Assembly: GCA_905618925.1 (NCBI GenBank)
Contig: CAJQTG010000021.1
Span: 1-64,000 of the forward strand
Reading direction: 5' to 3'
Origin: an uncultured Candidatus Thioglobus sp.
GTDB taxonomy: Bacteria > Pseudomonadota > Gammaproteobacteria > PS1 > Pseudothioglobaceae
Length of the DNA stretch: 64,000 nt
The notes under the pieces were generated by a model. The model made no database searches. It had not been told where the DNA came from and worked only from the letters and a program-made list of their open reading frames with translations. The translations under genes and the position numbers were made by a program. Numbering within the stretch: the stretch's first letter is position 1; the number at the start of each line of letters is the position of its first letter. This document shows positions 5,629 to 55,977 of this stretch, in pieces.

Positions 5629-7080
5629 ATGCAGTTAAGTATTGTTGCAAAAACTTTAGGCCTTCTTTTAATGGTCTTCAGTTTTGCTCAGGTACCCCCA
5701 ATATTAGTAGACTTGATATACTCAGAAGGTGAGTATCTAACTTTTGTATTTTCATTTATCCTGACAGTGTTGGGAGGCCTTCTATTATGGTGGCCATTTA
5801 GAGCAATAAAGAAAAGTTTTCGACTTAGAGAAGGCGTTTTAATAGTAGTTAGTTTTTGGATTGTTTTATCTCTTTTTGGAACACTGCCTTTTCTAATTAC
5901 TGAATCAATTAGTACTCTTTCATTTTCTAATGCATTTTTTGAGTCAATGTCTGGCTTAACAACAACTGGTGCGACTGTTTTAAGCCAGCTTGATGATTTA
6001 CCCAAAAGTATTCTTTTTTATAGGCAGCAACTTCAGTGGCTTGGAGGCATGGGAATTATTGTTCTTGCTGTTGCAGTACTACCTCTATTGGGTGTTGGTG
6101 GAATGGAGCTTTATCATGCAGAGTCTAGTGGTATTGCAAAAGATAGGCTTACGCCAAAGTTGCGAAATACTGCGATAGCTCTTTGGAAAATTTACCTTTC
6201 TTTGACTGTTTTATGTGCACTTGGTTATTTCTTTTCAGGCATGTCTATTTTTGATGCGATTAGTCACAGTTTTTCTACGGTTGCAATTGGAGGTTTTTCA
6301 ACGCATGACAGCTCTATTGGTTATTTCAACTCGATACCAATAGAAATGATTGCTATGTTTTTTATGTTTTTAGCGGGCATTAACTTTTCATTACACTTTG
6401 TTGCATGGAATAACCGCTCACTTGTTGACTACATTAAAGATTCTGAATTTAAAACTTATGCAATGGTCTTGTTTTCCGCATCTGCTATTGTAGTAATTGC
6501 CCTTTCTTTAAATGGAGAATACGGCTCAGCTACAGAAACAATAAGGCACAGCCTCTTTCAAACTATTTCAATAGCTACCACAACTGGTTTTACCTCACAA
6601 AATCATAGTAACTGGCCTGCAGCAATACCTGTTTTTCTAATAATGGTTAGTTTTATTGGCGCATGTGTTGGATCTACTGGAGGCGGAATTAAAGTAGTTC
6701 GGGTACTTGTCATGTTTAGATTAGGAATGAAAGAAATACATAGGTTTATACGCCCTAATGCTCAGGTTAGTATTAAGTTAAATAAGGCTAGTATCAATGA
6801 AAAGGCCCTAGTTTCAGTCCTTGGCTTCTTTTCGCTATATGCGATTTCTTTTATTTTTATTATGATGTTGTTAATGTTTACAGGATTAGATCAAGTAACT
6901 GCATATTCTGCAACAGCAGCAACTATGAATAATCTTGGACCAGGCCTTGGAGAAGTTGCGCAAAACTATGGATCGCTGGGCGAAACAGCTAAGTGGATTT
7001 TGAGTTTTTCAATGTTGATTGGCAGGCTTGAGGTTTTGACTATTATTGCCATTTTTCATAGGGCTTTTTGGAGGCATTAA
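5629..7080 (+). CDS. trkH: Trk/Ktr potassium uptake protein TrkH
   Basis: 483 aa multi-TM; repeated TTTGAT/TVAIGGFST/TTTGFTS/NNLGPGLG selectivity loops. Confidence 0.93.
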   Translation: MQLSIVAKTLGLLLMVFSFAQVPPILVDLIYSEGEYLTFVFSFILTVLGGLLLWWPFRAIKKSFRLREGVLIVVSFWIVLSLFGTLPFLITESISTLSFSNAFFESMSGLTTTGATVLSQLDDLPKSILFYRQQLQWLGGMGIIVLAVAVLPLLGVGGMELYHAESSGIAKDRLTPKLRNTAIALWKIYLSLTVLCALGYFFSGMSIFDAISHSFSTVAIGGFSTHDSSIGYFNSIPIEMIAMFFMFLAGINFSLHFVAWNNRSLVDYIKDSEFKTYAMVLFSASAIVVIALSLNGEYGSATETIRHSLFQTISIATTTGFTSQNHSNWPAAIPVFLIMVSFIGACVGSTGGGIKVVRVLVMFRLGMKEIHRFIRPNAQVSIKLNKASINEKALVSVLGFFSLYAISFIFIMMLLMFTGLDQVTAYSATAATMNNLGPGLGEVAQNYGSLGETAKWILSFSMLIGRLEVLTIIAIFHRAFWRH

Positions 7081-7086
7081 TAAGTT

Positions 7087-7117
7087 TATCAGCCCCACCA
7101 GGAGGGCAGGGCTGATA
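7087..7117. terminator. Possible bidirectional terminator hairpin between convergent trkH and hppA
   Basis: TATCAGCCC(7087-7095)...GGGCTGATA(7109-7117), perfect 9-bp stem; T-rich tract on + side is weak. Confidence 0.5.
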
Positions 7118-7127
7118 GAGTATCTTT

Positions 7128-9143
7128 TTACAATAACGGCGCAATAACTAAACTTACAATCGCCATTACATTGATAAGAATGTTCATCGCTGGACCAGAG
7201 GTATCCTTGAATGGGTCACCAACAGTATCACCGACAACAGTAGCTGCATGAACGTCAGTACCTTTACCGCCTAAGTTTCCTTTTTCAACATACTTCTTAG
7301 CATTATCCCAAGCGCCACCTGCATTAGCCATCATTAGAGCCATCAGAACACAACCAAGAAGAGCGCCACCAAGCATTCCACCAAGCGCTTCAGGACCAAT
7401 AAGGAATCCTACGACAACCGGTGCTGCTACAGCAATAACTCCCGGAAGAATCATTTTTTTAAGTGCTGCAGTTGTAGCAATATCAACGCATTTAGCTGTA
7501 TCTGGCTCTGCTTTACCTTCTAGAAGTCCTTTTATCTCTTTAAACTGCCTTCTTACTTCTTCAATCATTTCAAAAGCAGCATCACCAACAGCAGTCATAG
7601 TAAGAGAGGCAATTAAGAATGGAATCGTGCCACCAATAAATAAGCCAATTAAAACGTCTGCACTATTTAACTCAAGTATAAAGTTCATTCCCATTGCTGC
7701 GTAGTTAGCACTAACCGTCTCAGTATAAGCAGTAATAATCGCAAGAGCAGCAAGAGCGGCAGCGCCGATCGCAAATCCTTTGCCAATAGCTGCAGTTGTA
7801 TTACCAAGCTCATCAAGAGAATCTGTTATCTTACGAGTATCCTCTCCAAGTCCAGCCATTTCTGCAATACCACCTGCATTATCTGCAATTGGTCCATAAG
7901 CATCAATTGCCATAGTCATGCCGACCGTTGCAAGCATTCCTATTGCAGCAATACCAACGCCATACAAGCCAACAAAAAGATTAGAGACATAAATAATTAA
8001 GCAAATCATTAATACTGGAATTACAACGGATTGCATTCCAATTGCTAAGCCTTTAATCATTACAGTTGCAGCACCAGTTTTTCCAGACTCTGCAATATCT
8101 CTAATTGGCTTTCCAGCAGTATAGTATTCAGTAACAAGACCAATAATGATTCCGCCAAAGCTTCCCATAAGGACAGCTACCCAAATAGAATTTGAGACAT
8201 CTAAAAAATCGATTAGAAAATAAGATGTAATAATAAATAATACAGCTGAACCGATAGTACCCATTCTCAAAGCAGATTCAGGTGATTTATTTGAAGATAA
8301 TTTAACAAATAAAATTCCAAGAATTGAGCAAATTAAGCCAAGTGATGCAAGCGCTAGAGGAAGAGACATTAACTCAGCTCGGTTTCCACCAAGTGAAGTA
8401 AGGCCATCAATAGCAAGAGTAGAGGCAATTGCTATTGTTGCAATCATTGAGCCACAATATGATTCAAAGATATCTGAGCCCATACCAGCTATATCTCCTA
8501 CATTATCACCAACATTATCAGCAATAACTGCAGGATTGCGAGGATCATCTTCTGGAATCCCTGCTTCTAATTTGCCAACTAAGTCAGCTCCAACATCAGC
8601 ACTCTTAGTAAAGATTCCACCACCTACACGAGAGAATAGTGCAACAACTGAAGCGCCCATAGCAAAACCATGAAGTGCTTCTGAATGCTCTGCACCAAAG
8701 AAGTAGTAAAGTCCGCCTAATCCTAATAAACCAAGAGCCGCAACTGATAAACCCATTACTGAGCCACCAAAGAATGCAACAGTTAGGGCAGCAGAACTTC
8801 CACTATCATGAGCCGCTTGAGCTGTTCTTACATTAGCAATAGTTGCTGTGTTCATACCTATATAACCAGCAGTGGCTGAAGTAACAGCACCTACAAAGAA
8901 ACATAAGGCGCTTAAAGGGCCGAGGAATATATAAAGTAATACTAATAGGGCTAAAGCAAACATGCTTAGCATTTGATATTCACGCTTCATGAAAACAATT
9001 GCACCAATATGAATTTGTTCACCAATTTTTTTAACCTTTCCGCTGCCACCATCTTGCTTACTTATCCACTGATAGATAAATACAACGATAATTAAGCCTA
9101 AGACACCTAATGCAGGTGCTATTAAATTTTGATCAAAATCCAT
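7128..9143 (-). CDS. hppA: Membrane-bound ion-translocating pyrophosphatase
   Basis: 671 aa; [50 protein letters not shown] motifs. Confidence 0.95.
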
Positions 9144-13431: not shown

Positions 13432-13446
13432 AAATAGGTATCATAT

Positions 13447-13471
13447 GCAAATGATAGTGATTATCATTTGC
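13447..13471. promoter_or_regulatory. Candidate Fur box upstream of the DUF4856 gene
   Basis: GCAAATGATAGTGATTATCATTTGC: 10-bp arms, contains 7-1-7-like TGATAGT-G-ATTATCA. Confidence 0.75.
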
Positions 13472-13514
13472 AATAAGAAATACTTTAACTTTAACTTTAT
13501 TTAAGGAATAAGCA

Positions 13515-14912
13515 ATGTTTATAAAACGATTTACCGCCAAAGCGGTTCCACTAACTGTTGTTCTTACGTCAGCAATTTTGATTTCATCAGCATCATTTGC
13601 TAGGTCAAATGTCTATGCTGATTTTCCAATTACACTTAAAGATTACTCTGGAAGTGCAACAACTTCTACATCATATAAAGGGCAGATGGCAAGACATGTC
13701 CTTGAAAGTTCACTTAAGAAATTAATTTCTAAAGGTGATGTATCTGCAATGCAAAGTTATTATTCTGGTGGAAGTGCAGATAGAGTAATTATTGCTCCAG
13801 CAACAAAAGGTGATTTTGTTATTATGCAATCTACTATTGGCGAACTTTCTAGTAAAAATCTTAGTGGAAAAACTTATAAAGGTTTAATTCCAGGATGGCC
13901 TGGTAATATGACTGGACCTGAAGTAGTCGCTTTTATGTTTGAAAAAGCTGCTGACGTTGAAGGTGGTTATGATCCATCTCATGCGTATGACTATACTCAA
14001 TTAGTGTCTAAATTTTTAATGGGTGCTGTGATGTATAACCAAGCGGTTGATAACTATCTTGATGAAAAGCTTGAAGCAGATACTAAGCCAAATAATAAAC
14101 CATACAAAGATGGTGCTGCTTATACTGGTAAAGAGCATGTTTGGGATGAAGCTTTTGGTTATTTTGGTGCTCCATCGCACACGTTAACTCTATCAGCTCA
14201 AGATGTTTATAATATCGCTAAACAAAAAGATGTAACCGCTGCTGACTATAACTACGACGGTAAAGTCGACTTATACAAAGAAATGGCTTTTGGTCACGCA
14301 TACTATGCATCTTCGTTTGATAAAGGTGGAAAGACAACTTACCTTCATGACATTGTCGGCGCATACATGGACGGAAGAGATATGCTAGTAGCAGCTAATG
14401 CTAGTGCTCTTAGTGATTCTCAACGTGATCAACTTAAAGCTTATGCTCAAGTGATTAAGGCTAACTGGGAAAAGGTAATAGCTGAGGCAGTATTCAAGTA
14501 CGCAGGCGAGACTTATGAAGACATGGTTAAAATTGAGGCAATCCTTGAATCTAATGGAGATGTTTCTAAAGCATGGCGCAACTATTCTAAGCATTGGGGT
14601 GAGCTAAAAGGTTTTGCTCTAGCTCTTCAAGTTGGTGGAAAAGACATGGGTGCTATATCTGTTAGGTTAAACCGCTTGATTGGTCACAGTCCACTTCTTT
14701 TAGGAAACACTCAAGTAACTGGAGTAGATTCAAATGGAGAGTACATCCAGAGTAATTCTGAGTCTTGGGGTGGTTACATGGCGCACATGTTGAAAGTTCA
14801 AAGCCTAATGGTTGATGAGTTTGCAGTAGTTGCAAAATCTCATGATCAAACTGCAGGTTTAGCTGAATTAGTGAAATCTCTTGGAGCAAAATCTAGCGCC
14901 GAGAATGACTGA
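13515..14912 (+). CDS. DUF4856-family secreted protein, probably iron-related
   Basis: 465 aa with signal peptide; FPITLKDYSG..SYKGQMARHVLESSLKK and HVWDEAFGYFGAP resemble DUF4856; Fur box upstream. Confidence 0.65.
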   Translation: MFIKRFTAKAVPLTVVLTSAILISSASFARSNVYADFPITLKDYSGSATTSTSYKGQMARHVLESSLKKLISKGDVSAMQSYYSGGSADRVIIAPATKGDFVIMQSTIGELSSKNLSGKTYKGLIPGWPGNMTGPEVVAFMFEKAADVEGGYDPSHAYDYTQLVSKFLMGAVMYNQAVDNYLDEKLEADTKPNNKPYKDGAAYTGKEHVWDEAFGYFGAPSHTLTLSAQDVYNIAKQKDVTAADYNYDGKVDLYKEMAFGHAYYASSFDKGGKTTYLHDIVGAYMDGRDMLVAANASALSDSQRDQLKAYAQVIKANWEKVIAEAVFKYAGETYEDMVKIEAILESNGDVSKAWRNYSKHWGELKGFALALQVGGKDMGAISVRLNRLIGHSPLLLGNTQVTGVDSNGEYIQSNSESWGGYMAHMLKVQSLMVDEFAVVAKSHDQTAGLAELVKSLGAKSSAEND

Positions 14913-15786
14913 TTTTTTTGCAAATTTTCTTAATCCAGAAAAGCGTTTATTTTTAGGTTACTTAATAAGCGCTGCTTTCATAGCAGTTATATGGATTAGG
15001 ATGGTTCAAAAAAAACCACTGGCAAACATTGTCAGTGGTTTTTTCAATTCCAATGTTTGGTTTTCTAAGTCGGCGATTGGTGACTATAAACTAATGGTAT
15101 TCAATCAATTTTTTATAAAACTTCTAGCGCCAATTTTAGTTGGTCAACTTGCTCTAACCTTATTTGTCTTTGAAAATATGCATTTATTATTCTCAAGACC
15201 TTCAGCATCAGTGCCAGTTTGGATAGTAATGCTAGTATTTACTTCAGTTCTTTTTATTCTTGATGATTTTTCTCGATACTTATTGCATCGTCTTATGCAC
15301 CGAATTCCTTTACTATGGAAATTTCATAAGGCTCATCACTCCGCAACTAACTTAACACCATTAACTGTTCTTAGAACTCATCCAATTGAGGCAGTTCTTT
15401 TTAGTTTCAGAGCTGTAATTGTTCATTCATTATGCCTTGGTGTTTGTTTCTTCTTCTTCGCAGGAAGTGTGTCACTAATTGAAATTTTTGGCTCAAGCAT
15501 GTTTGTTGTTATATTCCATTCATTAGGGTCAAATTTGAGGCATTCTCATGTGAACCTTAGCTACTGGAATTGGCTAGAAAAGATTTTAGTCTCACCTGCA
15601 CAGCATCAGATTCATCACTCAATTAATCCAAAACATTATGACTCTAACTTTGGTGCAATCCTAGCAATATGGGATAATCTTGGGCGGAGCTGTATAGTCT
15701 CTGAAAAAAATCAAGAAATTGAGTTTGGCCTTAAGGATCAATCTGAAAAAGCTCACAATCTTAAAAATTTAATTATTGGGTCTTAA
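14905..15786 (+). CDS. Sterol desaturase/fatty acid hydroxylase superfamily membrane protein
   Basis: Multi-TM with His boxes HRLMH, HKAHH, HQIHH; ATG overlaps previous stop. Confidence 0.83.
   Translation: MTDFFANFLNPEKRLFLGYLISAAFIAVIWIRMVQKKPLANIVSGFFNSNVWFSKSAIGDYKLMVFNQFFIKLLAPILVGQLALTLFVFENMHLLFSRPSASVPVWIVMLVFTSVLFILDDFSRYLLHRLMHRIPLLWKFHKAHHSATNLTPLTVLRTHPIEAVLFSFRAVIVHSLCLGVCFFFFAGSVSLIEIFGSSMFVVIFHSLGSNLRHSHVNLSYWNWLEKILVSPAQHQIHHSINPKHYDSNFGAILAIWDNLGRSCIVSEKNQEIEFGLKDQSEKAHNLKNLIIGS
15010..15044 (+). terminator. Strong intrinsic-terminator-like hairpin inside the sterol desaturase-family CDS
   Basis: AAAAAACCACTG(15010-15021)gcaaacattgtCAGTGGTTTTTT(15033-15044); inner pairing extends stem to about 16 bp around a 3-nt loop; T6 tract. 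Confidence 0.75.
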
Positions 15787-15827: not shown

Positions 15828-16859
15828 ATGGAGTACAAAGTGAACAAAAAAGTATCAATCCTTTCAATACTAGTAATAGCAATTTTATCTACATCTTTTT
15901 CAGCAGCAGTCTTAGCAACAACTGATGATAGTCTTACGGTTTATAGCACAAGGAAAGAACATTTAATTAAGCCACTATTTGACGCTTTTACTAGTAACAC
16001 TGGCATTGAAGTTAAATACCTAACTGGTAACGGTGGTGCTTTAATTGAACGAATTAAATTAGAGGGAAAGAGAACTAAGGCGGATATGTTTATGACAGTT
16101 GATGCTGGTAATCTTTGGTATGCTGCTTCACAAAATTTGTTCCAGCCAGTAGAGAGCGAAGTACTAATTAATAATATTCCTGCTCATCTTAGAGATCCTG
16201 AAGGATTATGGACGGGATTATCAGTCCGTGCAAGAACAATTATTTATAGTACTGAGAGAGTAAATCCTTCGGAATTATCTACATATCAAGACTTAGCGGA
16301 TAATAAATGGAAAGGTAGGCTTTGTTTAAGAACAAGTAAAAAAGTGTATACCAAATCACTCGTAGCATCTTTAATTCATCATGATGGGCAGGAAGCTACT
16401 ACAGATGTTGTAAAGGGCTGGGTTGATAATTTAGCTGCAACTCCAAATGCAGAGGATACCCATGTTATGAGGGCTATTCTTGCTGGTCAATGTGATGTTG
16501 GTATTGTGAATACCTATTACTTTGGACGTCTTCAAGCTGAAAAACCAAATGTTACACTTAAATTATTTTGGGCAAATCAAGGCTCTACAGGAACTCATGT
16601 CAATATTTCAGGAGCTGGAGTTACAAAGTATTCTAGTAATAAAGAAGGATCAATTAAATTATTAGAATTTTTATCTTCAATCGATGCGCAAAAGATTTAT
16701 GTAGAGTTAAATAAAGAGTACCCAGCAAGTCAAAAATTAAAAGCTGATAACTTAATTGCGCAATGGGGCGATTTTAATCAGGATAAAATGAATCTCTCAG
16801 TTGCTGGAAAAAATCAAGCAGATGCCGTCGCCTTAATGCAGAGAGAAGGTTATAGATAA
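15828..16859 (+). CDS. fbpA: Iron(III) ABC transporter substrate-binding protein (FbpA-like)
   Basis: 343 aa; signal peptide, LTVYSTRKEHLIKPLFDAF, C-terminal YPAS; precedes FbpB-like permease. Confidence 0.85.
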   Translation: MEYKVNKKVSILSILVIAILSTSFSAAVLATTDDSLTVYSTRKEHLIKPLFDAFTSNTGIEVKYLTGNGGALIERIKLEGKRTKADMFMTVDAGNLWYAASQNLFQPVESEVLINNIPAHLRDPEGLWTGLSVRARTIIYSTERVNPSELSTYQDLADNKWKGRLCLRTSKKVYTKSLVASLIHHDGQEATTDVVKGWVDNLAATPNAEDTHVMRAILAGQCDVGIVNTYYFGRLQAEKPNVTLKLFWANQGSTGTHVNISGAGVTKYSSNKEGSIKLLEFLSSIDAQKIYVELNKEYPASQKLKADNLIAQWGDFNQDKMNLSVAGKNQADAVALMQREGYR

Positions 16860-16889: not shown

Positions 16890-18488
16890 ATGAGTATTAG
16901 ACAAAATAATTCAAATATCTTAATGGGCTTTCTAGCATTTTCGGTTGCCTTCCCAATAATAGTTGTATTTTCTGCCTGGCTATTGCCGGGCTCTGAGCTA
17001 TGGGGCCATTTTGCAGAAAATCTTCTTCCTGAGCTAGTTAGCTCTACTTTAATATTACTTTTAGGGGTTGGTATTGGAGTTAGTGTCCTTGGAACTGTTC
17101 TCGCCTACTTAGTTGTAATGGTTGAGTTCCCAGGAAGAAAGTGGCTTGAATGGGCTCTTTTTCTTCCTTTTGCAATACCCGCATATGTCTTAGCTTTTGT
17201 ATATCTTGGGGTTTTTGACTATTCAGGATATGCACAAGTATGGCTTAGAGAGCTTACCGGAATTTCAGGATTTGATATTCGTTCTGGTCATTGGGCGATT
17301 ATCTTAACATTTGTATTGGTTTTCTATCCGTATGTTTATATGATGGCAAGAGCTTCATTCAAGCGACAGAAGATTCAAATGATTGAGGCAGGTAAGATGT
17401 TAGGCGCCTCTCCTTTTAGTGTTTTTTGGAAGATTTCTGTTCCTCTGGCAAGGCCAGCGATAGCTGCTGGATTGCTTGTTACGTTAATGGAGACTTTGGC
17501 AGATTTTGGGGTTGTTTCATTATTTAATTACCCAACTTTCACCACAGCAATTTATTCTGCGTGGGGTGATTTTAGGTCAATTGAGGTTGCTGCTCAACTC
17601 GCATCTTTACTAGTATTGGTTGCATTCCTTCTTATTTACTTTGAAAAGAAAGCGCGCGGCAAGGCCAAGTATTATTCTTCAGATGTTTCTAGTATAAAAC
17701 CTTATCATGCAAATGGCCTAATTGGATGGTTGCTTTTTGTATTTGTGTTTGGCGTATTTATGCTTTCATTTGCAATGCCAATGCTGCAGATCATAATTTG
17801 GAGTTTTGAAAAATTTACTCAAGAGTGGAATCCAAGATACTTTGATTATTTATCTTCTACAGGTATATTGACAATTAGCGCAACAGTTTTGACAGTTTTT
17901 ATTGCAACACTTCTTGCACTCCCTAGCAGAAGGAAGTCTAATAGCAAAGTTCTCCAGATATTAATTAGGTTCTCAACACTTGGCTATGCTTTGCCAGGAT
18001 CAGTAATGGCAGTAGGGCTTCTTTATGGAGTTCAAAATATTTCATTAATTAGTATTTATTTTGGTGGCTCATCAATTAACCATATACTTTTTGGCTCTGT
18101 TGCGTTGTTACTTTTTGCATATGTGTCAAGATTTATGGCGATTGCTTTTAACTCAACTATTGCCTCTAGTGAGCAAATCAAGCCAATGTTTGAGCAAAGT
18201 GCAAGATTACTTGGTGCTAGTCGTTTCCGTTTAATTAAGGAGGTGTATTTGCCAATGATGACTCCTGGAATATTGGCAGGAGCTCTATTAGTTTCAGTGG
18301 ACGTAATGAAAGAACTCCCCGCAACTTATTTATTAAGACCATTTGGCTGGGATACATTAGCAATTCGGGTTTACGAGTTGAGCGCTGAAGGTTTGTACGA
18401 AAGGGCCGCGATACCAGCCCTGATTATGGTATTTCTTGGAGCAGTCATCATGCTTTTATTTAATAAGCTTGATAGAGATAACAACTAA
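16890..18488 (+). CDS. fbpB: Iron(III) ABC transporter permease (FbpB-like, fused double permease)
   Basis: 532 aa, two binding-protein-dependent permease halves (EAGKMLGASPFSVFWKISVPLARPA; QSARLLGASRFRLIKEVYLPMMTPG). Confidence 0.87.
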   Translation: MSIRQNNSNILMGFLAFSVAFPIIVVFSAWLLPGSELWGHFAENLLPELVSSTLILLLGVGIGVSVLGTVLAYLVVMVEFPGRKWLEWALFLPFAIPAYVLAFVYLGVFDYSGYAQVWLRELTGISGFDIRSGHWAIILTFVLVFYPYVYMMARASFKRQKIQMIEAGKMLGASPFSVFWKISVPLARPAIAAGLLVTLMETLADFGVVSLFNYPTFTTAIYSAWGDFRSIEVAAQLASLLVLVAFLLIYFEKKARGKAKYYSSDVSSIKPYHANGLIGWLLFVFVFGVFMLSFAMPMLQIIIWSFEKFTQEWNPRYFDYLSSTGILTISATVLTVFIATLLALPSRRKSNSKVLQILIRFSTLGYALPGSVMAVGLLYGVQNISLISIYFGGSSINHILFGSVALLLFAYVSRFMAIAFNSTIASSEQIKPMFEQSARLLGASRFRLIKEVYLPMMTPGILAGALLVSVDVMKELPATYLLRPFGWDTLAIRVYELSAEGLYERAAIPALIMVFLGAVIMLLFNKLDRDNN

Positions 18489-22626: not shown

Positions 22627-22657
22627 AAACCCCTGTCTAAGTGCAGGGGTTTTTTTT
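22627..22657 (+). terminator. Intrinsic terminator between cbbS and cbbQ
   Basis: AAACCCCTG tctaagtg CAGGGGTTTTTTTT. Confidence 0.85.
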
Positions 22658-55902: not shown

Positions 55903-55921
55903 TAGTGCAGTTTAGAAAAAT

Positions 55922-55946
55922 AAAAAGCCCTCAAAAAGGGCTTTTT
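55922..55946. terminator. Intrinsic terminator between rplI and dnaB
   Basis: AAAAAGCCC TCAAAAA GGGCTTTTT, effective on both strands. Confidence 0.8.
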
Positions 55947-55977
55947 ATTTTAACTTACTTATGTGATTTGAATTAAC

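Follow-up and report, generated by a model that had tools for sequence, protein, structure and literature searches.

The window, that is, the whole stretch of 64,000 nt that was analysed, belongs to a genome of the SUP05/Thioglobus group. The features discussed here are listed below in the order of their coordinates; H1 and H2 denote two stems in the coding sequence of FAH.

13446–13472, no strand assigned: Fur-box-like palindrome TGCAAATGATAGTGATTATCATTTGCA, a 12-bp dyad, 5′ of the DUF4856 gene
13515–14912, plus strand: DUF4856 gene, 465 aa, upstream of FAH (PF16148, E 2.5e-12)
14905–15786, plus strand: FAH, fatty acid hydroxylase/sterol-desaturase-family gene, 293 aa (PF04116, E 4.3e-23)
14905–14912, plus strand: overlap ATGACTGA of the FAH start and the DUF4856 stop (stop codon at 14910–14912), present in 10/10 orthologues
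14942–14973, plus strand: stem H1, AGCGYTTATT / AATAAGCGCT, 10 bp with a 12-nt loop, paired in 10/10 orthologues
15008–15015, plus strand: A tract (A8), coding for Gln-Lys-Lys, the pairing partner of the U tract
15010–15044, plus strand: hairpin H2, arms 15010–15025 and 15029–15044, loop 15026–15028
15039–15044, plus strand: U tract of H2, immediately 3′ of the final stem G, U6 in the window
15840–16859, plus strand: fbpA-like solute-binding protein gene, 3′ of H2 (Pfam SBP families; synteny in 10/10; GTG start preferred)
16890–18488, plus strand: fbpB-like permease gene, 3′ of H2 (PF00528; synteny)

The Fur-box-like palindrome is kept in all ten orthologous loci, with 15–17 of 19 positions matching the classical Fur box. 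Similar Fur-like boxes are visible 5′ of DUF4856 in SAR116 loci. The DUF4856 protein is likely exported. Its AlphaFold model is mostly helical (pLDDT 78.5) and found no structural match in the PDB with E ≤ 0.001; the sequence search of the PDB returned no match and the literature search found no paper on DUF4856 function. The modelled fold is possibly undescribed. The start of the fbpA-like gene is probably GTG 15840, preceded by GGAG, rather than ATG 15828, because several orthologues lack the ATG and carry GTG or TTG at the later position (window coordinates 15828–15842). The possibility of an additional Fur promoter in the spacer from FAH to fbpA was set aside, since that spacer shows no Fur box.

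Hairpin H2 occupies codons 36–47 of FAH. The sequence at 15010–15044 is AAAAAACCACTGGCAAACATTGTCAGTGGTTTTTT, and in the window RNA it forms a stem of 16 bp, including one G-U pair, with the loop ACA and a U6 tract. The original prediction had described a strong intrinsic terminator embedded here in a coding sequence. The sequence and ORF check returned the same hairpin sequence, coordinates, open frame and encoded peptide, and the fold of 15010–15044 reproduced the 16-bp pairing, the 3-nt loop and the U tract. The predicted distance of about 105 nt into the sterol-desaturase-family gene agrees with the FAH ATG at 14905 and the start of H2 at 15010, and the predicted overlap of this ATG with the DUF4856 stop measures 8 nt. 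The fold has an energy of −19.1 kcal/mol and a z-score of −6.6, and none of 200 shuffles was as good. To call this hairpin “strong” is a little too favourable: A-U pairing of the A tract with the U tract accounts for six of its 16 pairs, and the core of 10 bp, half of it G-C, reaches only −12.9 kcal/mol. A later FAH start that would place H2 outside the gene is unlikely, since codons 1–60 encode conserved protein, and these N-terminal residues are also present in SAR116 FAH.

Three features of an intrinsic (Rho-independent) terminator are present in H2: a stable stem with a short loop, a U tract straight after the stem in 10/10 orthologues and location on the transcribed strand, where the wobble pairs are G-U. 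The palindrome can be read on either strand, and the minus strand has U8. Ten simulated 64-kb sequences with matching dinucleotide composition contained no 16-bp stem of this kind; their longest comparable stem, of 15 bp, was found once. The two further strong hairpins with a U tail in the window, at 22627–22652 and 55917–55951, are intergenic. A search with Rfam covariance models returned nothing at H2 up to E 1. A repeated or mobile element was rejected, as the genome has a single copy of the H2 pattern and same-genus relatives have it at the FAH locus only.

A search of 29 genomes of the genus revealed a close FAH in ten, the window’s own genome included; the other nine proteins are 79–95% identical to that of the window. 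DUF4856 is present in exactly these ten genomes, and the order M24 peptidase – fbpC – DUF4856 – FAH – fbpA – fbpB – argJ is kept in all ten loci, the M24 peptidase gene lying beyond the contig end in one of them. H2 is located at identical codons in every orthologue. With 16 pairs in ten sequences, 159 of 160 cells are standard pairs, and slid-partner controls pair at most 56% of cells. Five pairs vary among the orthologues, three of them with changes on both sides. The covariation measures were equalled by 1 to 6 of 500 column shuffles, which leave relatedness in. The two lineages that matter most for the compensatory evidence are divergent, and their replacements differ. In G004 (L009), with the arms CCACTTGTAA/TTGCAAGTGG, a G-C pair is replaced by U-A and an A-U pair by G-C, and the peptide is altered together with the stem (GTC to GCA, Val to Ala). 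In G019 (L011), with the arms CCACTAATGA/TCGTTAGTGG, the compensatory change is also clear. The stem is followed by U6–7 in all ten orthologues, and the A tract is A6 or longer in each.

The polarity of the variation points to the strand on which H2 acts. Nine cells of the alignment are wobble pairs that read G-U or U-G in the coding strand; the opposite strand would have A-C mismatches there, which identifies H2 as a structure of the plus-strand RNA. Wobble polarity and the sequence changes within the stem rule out a minus-strand terminator or a DNA operator. When conservation of the hairpin was compared with that of the peptide, a check proposed with the original prediction, every same-genus relative found has H2, none carrying the peptide without the hairpin. 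Judged from these comparisons, H2 is under selection as a plus-strand RNA hairpin with a U tract.

The coding side bears the same mark. Codons 35–46 of FAH have the lowest synonymous divergence in the gene when 12-codon windows are compared (0.12 versus a gene mean of 0.355), and the arms of H2 are conserved above the amino-acid expectation (p = 0.019). CTG makes up 2% of the Leu codons in neighbouring genes. Codon 39 of FAH is nevertheless CTG in eight of ten orthologues, the sole CTG-majority column among the 51 all-Leu columns of the two genes, and in the two species without CTG at this codon, the partner base in H2 is also changed. Both the rare conserved CTG and the local synonymous dip are thus explained by H2.

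The pair of DUF4856 and FAH was also found outside the genus. In SAR116 alphaproteobacteria the two genes stand together, with fbpA adjoining where checked (L055–L058); they do not overlap, and the gap between them contains a strong hairpin of different sequence (e.g., AAAACTGACCAGC-AAAA-GCTGGTCAGTTTT in L057 and TGTAAGACATC...GATGTCTTACA in L091). Class-wide searches revealed close DUF4856 homologues in nine more Alphaproteobacteria and in one distant Gammaproteobacterium, each followed by FAH, and most of these ten loci contain a hairpin between the two genes. Some of the hairpins are classical terminators, such as GGGCGAC...GTCGCCC-T8 in L097 (U8) and TGGCCACCC...GGGTGGCCA-TTTTTATTT in L107 (U5); others have no U tract (L104, L106, L111).

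The survey of boundary folds comprised 35 loci (10 SUP05, 15 SAR116 and 10 other), many of them closely related and therefore not independent events, with about ten unrelated stem sequences. The boundary window folds more stably than all control windows of the same genes in 31 of the 35; L086 and L106 have a clear hairpin at the boundary that is not top-ranked. A boundary hairpin unrelated in sequence to H2 is present in 23 of the 25 loci outside SUP05. L103 and L110 failed the compact-hairpin test, and L103 shows by eye a long-range complementarity, GGCTCAGAAAAT...ATTTTCTGAGCC. On inspection by eye, 14 of the 23 non-SUP05 hairpin loci have no run of at least four U, either in the 3′ part of the stem or immediately beyond it, and no such hairpin was seen at the more distant FAH homologues without DUF4856 (L012–L022). 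As far as these loci indicate, the conserved feature is a hairpin at the DUF4856/FAH boundary, embedded in coding sequence in the SUP05 genus with its overlapping genes; H2 lies inside FAH codons because FAH overlaps DUF4856.

The pair is distributed in patches: it was found in 10 of the 29 genomes of the genus, in SAR116, in other, scattered Alphaproteobacteria and in one distant Gammaproteobacterium, with an identity across the scattered lineages of about 48–59% (L055–L058, L097, L103–L111), which suggests horizontal transfer of DUF4856-FAH as an iron-related module. The fbpB gene of G009 (L067) is a mosaic in the region 5978–7589, with stretches of about 90% identity alternating with stretches of about 50%, and its FAH shows 84% similarity versus 96% for the adjoining DUF4856. 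This pattern looks like recombination.

Considering these data together, we find it rather probable that H2 is an operon-internal 3′-end element that raises DUF4856 mRNA over that of FAH-fbpAB through partial intrinsic termination combined with protection by the stem. Transcription would start at a Fur-controlled promoter 5′ of DUF4856, as the Fur-like box suggests, and RNA polymerase would reach H2 and its U tract about 100 nt beyond the DUF4856 stop, where a fraction would be released. The H2 stem would then protect the DUF4856 mRNA against 3′ exonucleases, the remaining polymerases would continue into FAH-fbpA-fbpB and DUF4856 mRNA would be expected to exceed that of FAH and the transporter. 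The position of H2 fits control of DUF4856 versus FAH-fbpAB expression, and setting DUF4856 mRNA above the rest of the operon would be the simplest function of a boundary hairpin. The original prediction, that H2 may end most DUF4856 transcripts and make FAH and fbpAB depend on readthrough or on translation at the FAH start melting the stem, is supported in part.

As for the means, partial intrinsic termination is the preferred mechanism for the SUP05 genus in view of the stem and its U6–7, and H2 probably acts there as a partial terminator. Termination may be weak, since G-C pairs make up only half of the core and the U tract has six to seven residues. Moreover, a terminator that is translated is normally disrupted by the leading ribosome, which counts against termination at H2. 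A ribosome re-initiating at the overlapping ATG and moving close to the polymerase should prevent the H2 stem from forming, and this effect would couple downstream expression to translation. Premature termination in E. coli is inhibited when a ribosome trails closely behind (PMC13323073). The ancestral job common to all lineages may not be termination, because 14 of the 23 hairpins outside SUP05 have no run of at least four U. Protection after endonuclease cleavage is the more likely mode in lineages without the U tract, and the frequent absence of U tracts there makes protection of the mRNA 3′ end a serious rival or an added role.

A possible, though less probable, explanation is therefore a barrier to mRNA decay without termination: the operon would be read through, an endonuclease would cut FAH-fbpAB and H2 would block 3′–5′ exonucleases, so that the DUF4856 mRNA would live longer. 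The model for such a barrier is provided by the protective 3′ hairpins that Dar and Sorek described in E. coli (2018; PMC5927463): at operon boundaries these mostly fall within the coding part of the downstream gene, 107 ± 56 nt from its start, show conservation of wobble positions and lack a U tract. H2 resembles them in being stable, situated at a two-gene boundary 105 nt into the downstream gene and wobble-conserved (arms p = 0.019; codons 35–46 lowest in the gene), and SAR116 and several other lineages keep the hairpin without a U tract. However, unlike the E. coli set, H2 has U6–7 in every one of the ten species of the genus examined. Despite the matching place and conservation, H2 was not assigned to the E. 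coli protective set because of this difference.

RNA 3′ ends within open reading frames are frequent in E. coli (PMC7815308) and in Borrelia (PMC10319736). For Borrelia bmpAB, a termination hairpin has been held responsible for a 3′ end that lies in bmpB (Ramamoorthy 2005, as cited in PMC10319736). Going by that citation, H2 would resemble bmpAB in giving a 3′ end within the downstream gene of an operon; the genes and sequence of the H2 locus are unrelated to it. As summarised or cited in PMC5927463, the stems of the intergenic hairpins of malE-malF and puf, standing after the first gene, raise its mRNA versus that of later genes. Like them, the hairpins between DUF4856 and FAH in SAR116 and the other lineages are intergenic, whereas in the SUP05 genus the stem falls within the following gene and carries a U tract.

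One variant of the partial-termination reading, which we regard as somewhat doubtful, would make the FAH start an attenuator that is dual-coded and responds to translation: H1, H2 and the overlapping start codon would act as a switch in which re-initiation at FAH decides termination and sets readthrough of the iron-controlled operon past DUF4856, and a hairpin that is intergenic elsewhere would be held in coding sequence at an amino-acid cost. The ATGACTGA overlap in ten of ten orthologues is consistent with such a switch, and so are the properties of H1. The arms of H1, 14942–14951 with 14964–14973, lie within the FAH start and are conserved at synonymous sites (permutation p = 0.002), whereas the loop is not (p = 0.45). 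Moreover, in a scan of both genes for shared stems (at least 9 bp, at least 3 G-C, loop of 3–15), H1 and H2 were the only stems common to at least six orthologues, each being present in all ten. On the other hand, RNAalifold on 225 nt retained H2 and no conserved pairing that would exclude it was found. H1 is invariant except for one C/T, has no two-sided changes among the ten orthologues, which makes its RNA nature less certain, and was not found outside the SUP05 genus; the inverted repeat could be an RNA or a DNA site. A long stem around H1 in the window fold, CTTAATCC/GGATTAGG, was discarded, being absent from most relatives in the alignment. The AGCGC of H1 recurs at the end of DUF4856 (14895–14899).

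A programmed ribosomal frameshift at CAAAAAAAACC, with H2 as the stimulator, is very improbable: a run of eight A does stand just 5′ of the stem, but the run is itself base-paired, one orthologue reads AATAAAAAACC and the −1 and +1 frames, which lack conservation, stop within 1 to 25 codons, so neither a conserved slippery site nor a conserved shifted frame was found. That the palindrome arose by chance or from the peptide and has no function as RNA is hardly credible, for although the codons of K-K-P-L and S-G-F-F favour complementary letters and codon resampling with the peptide fixed reaches an equal stem in about 1% of cases (0.7–2.2% per species in the ten species), the compensatory changes, the slid controls with at most 56% of cells paired, the rare codon kept and the boundary hairpins of other lineages all speak against it.

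To sum up the comparative evidence, H2 is a real RNA hairpin, embedded in coding sequence and under selection, at an operon boundary that is itself conserved. Boundary hairpins embedded in coding sequence are already known from E. coli and from Borrelia bmpB; the evolutionary record of H2 is unusually clear. The locus provides a clean natural example of selection on one DNA stretch for both its protein and its RNA structure, with compensatory changes crossing codons. The hosts are abundant, mostly uncultured ocean bacteria for which transcript maps are scarce. The unrelated hairpins at the same two-gene boundary in distant proteobacteria would represent convergence, or replacement in place, of a device that sets the ratio within the operon. 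The finding points to the uncharacterised, probably iron-regulated DUF4856 protein, which cells may need in excess over its transporter.
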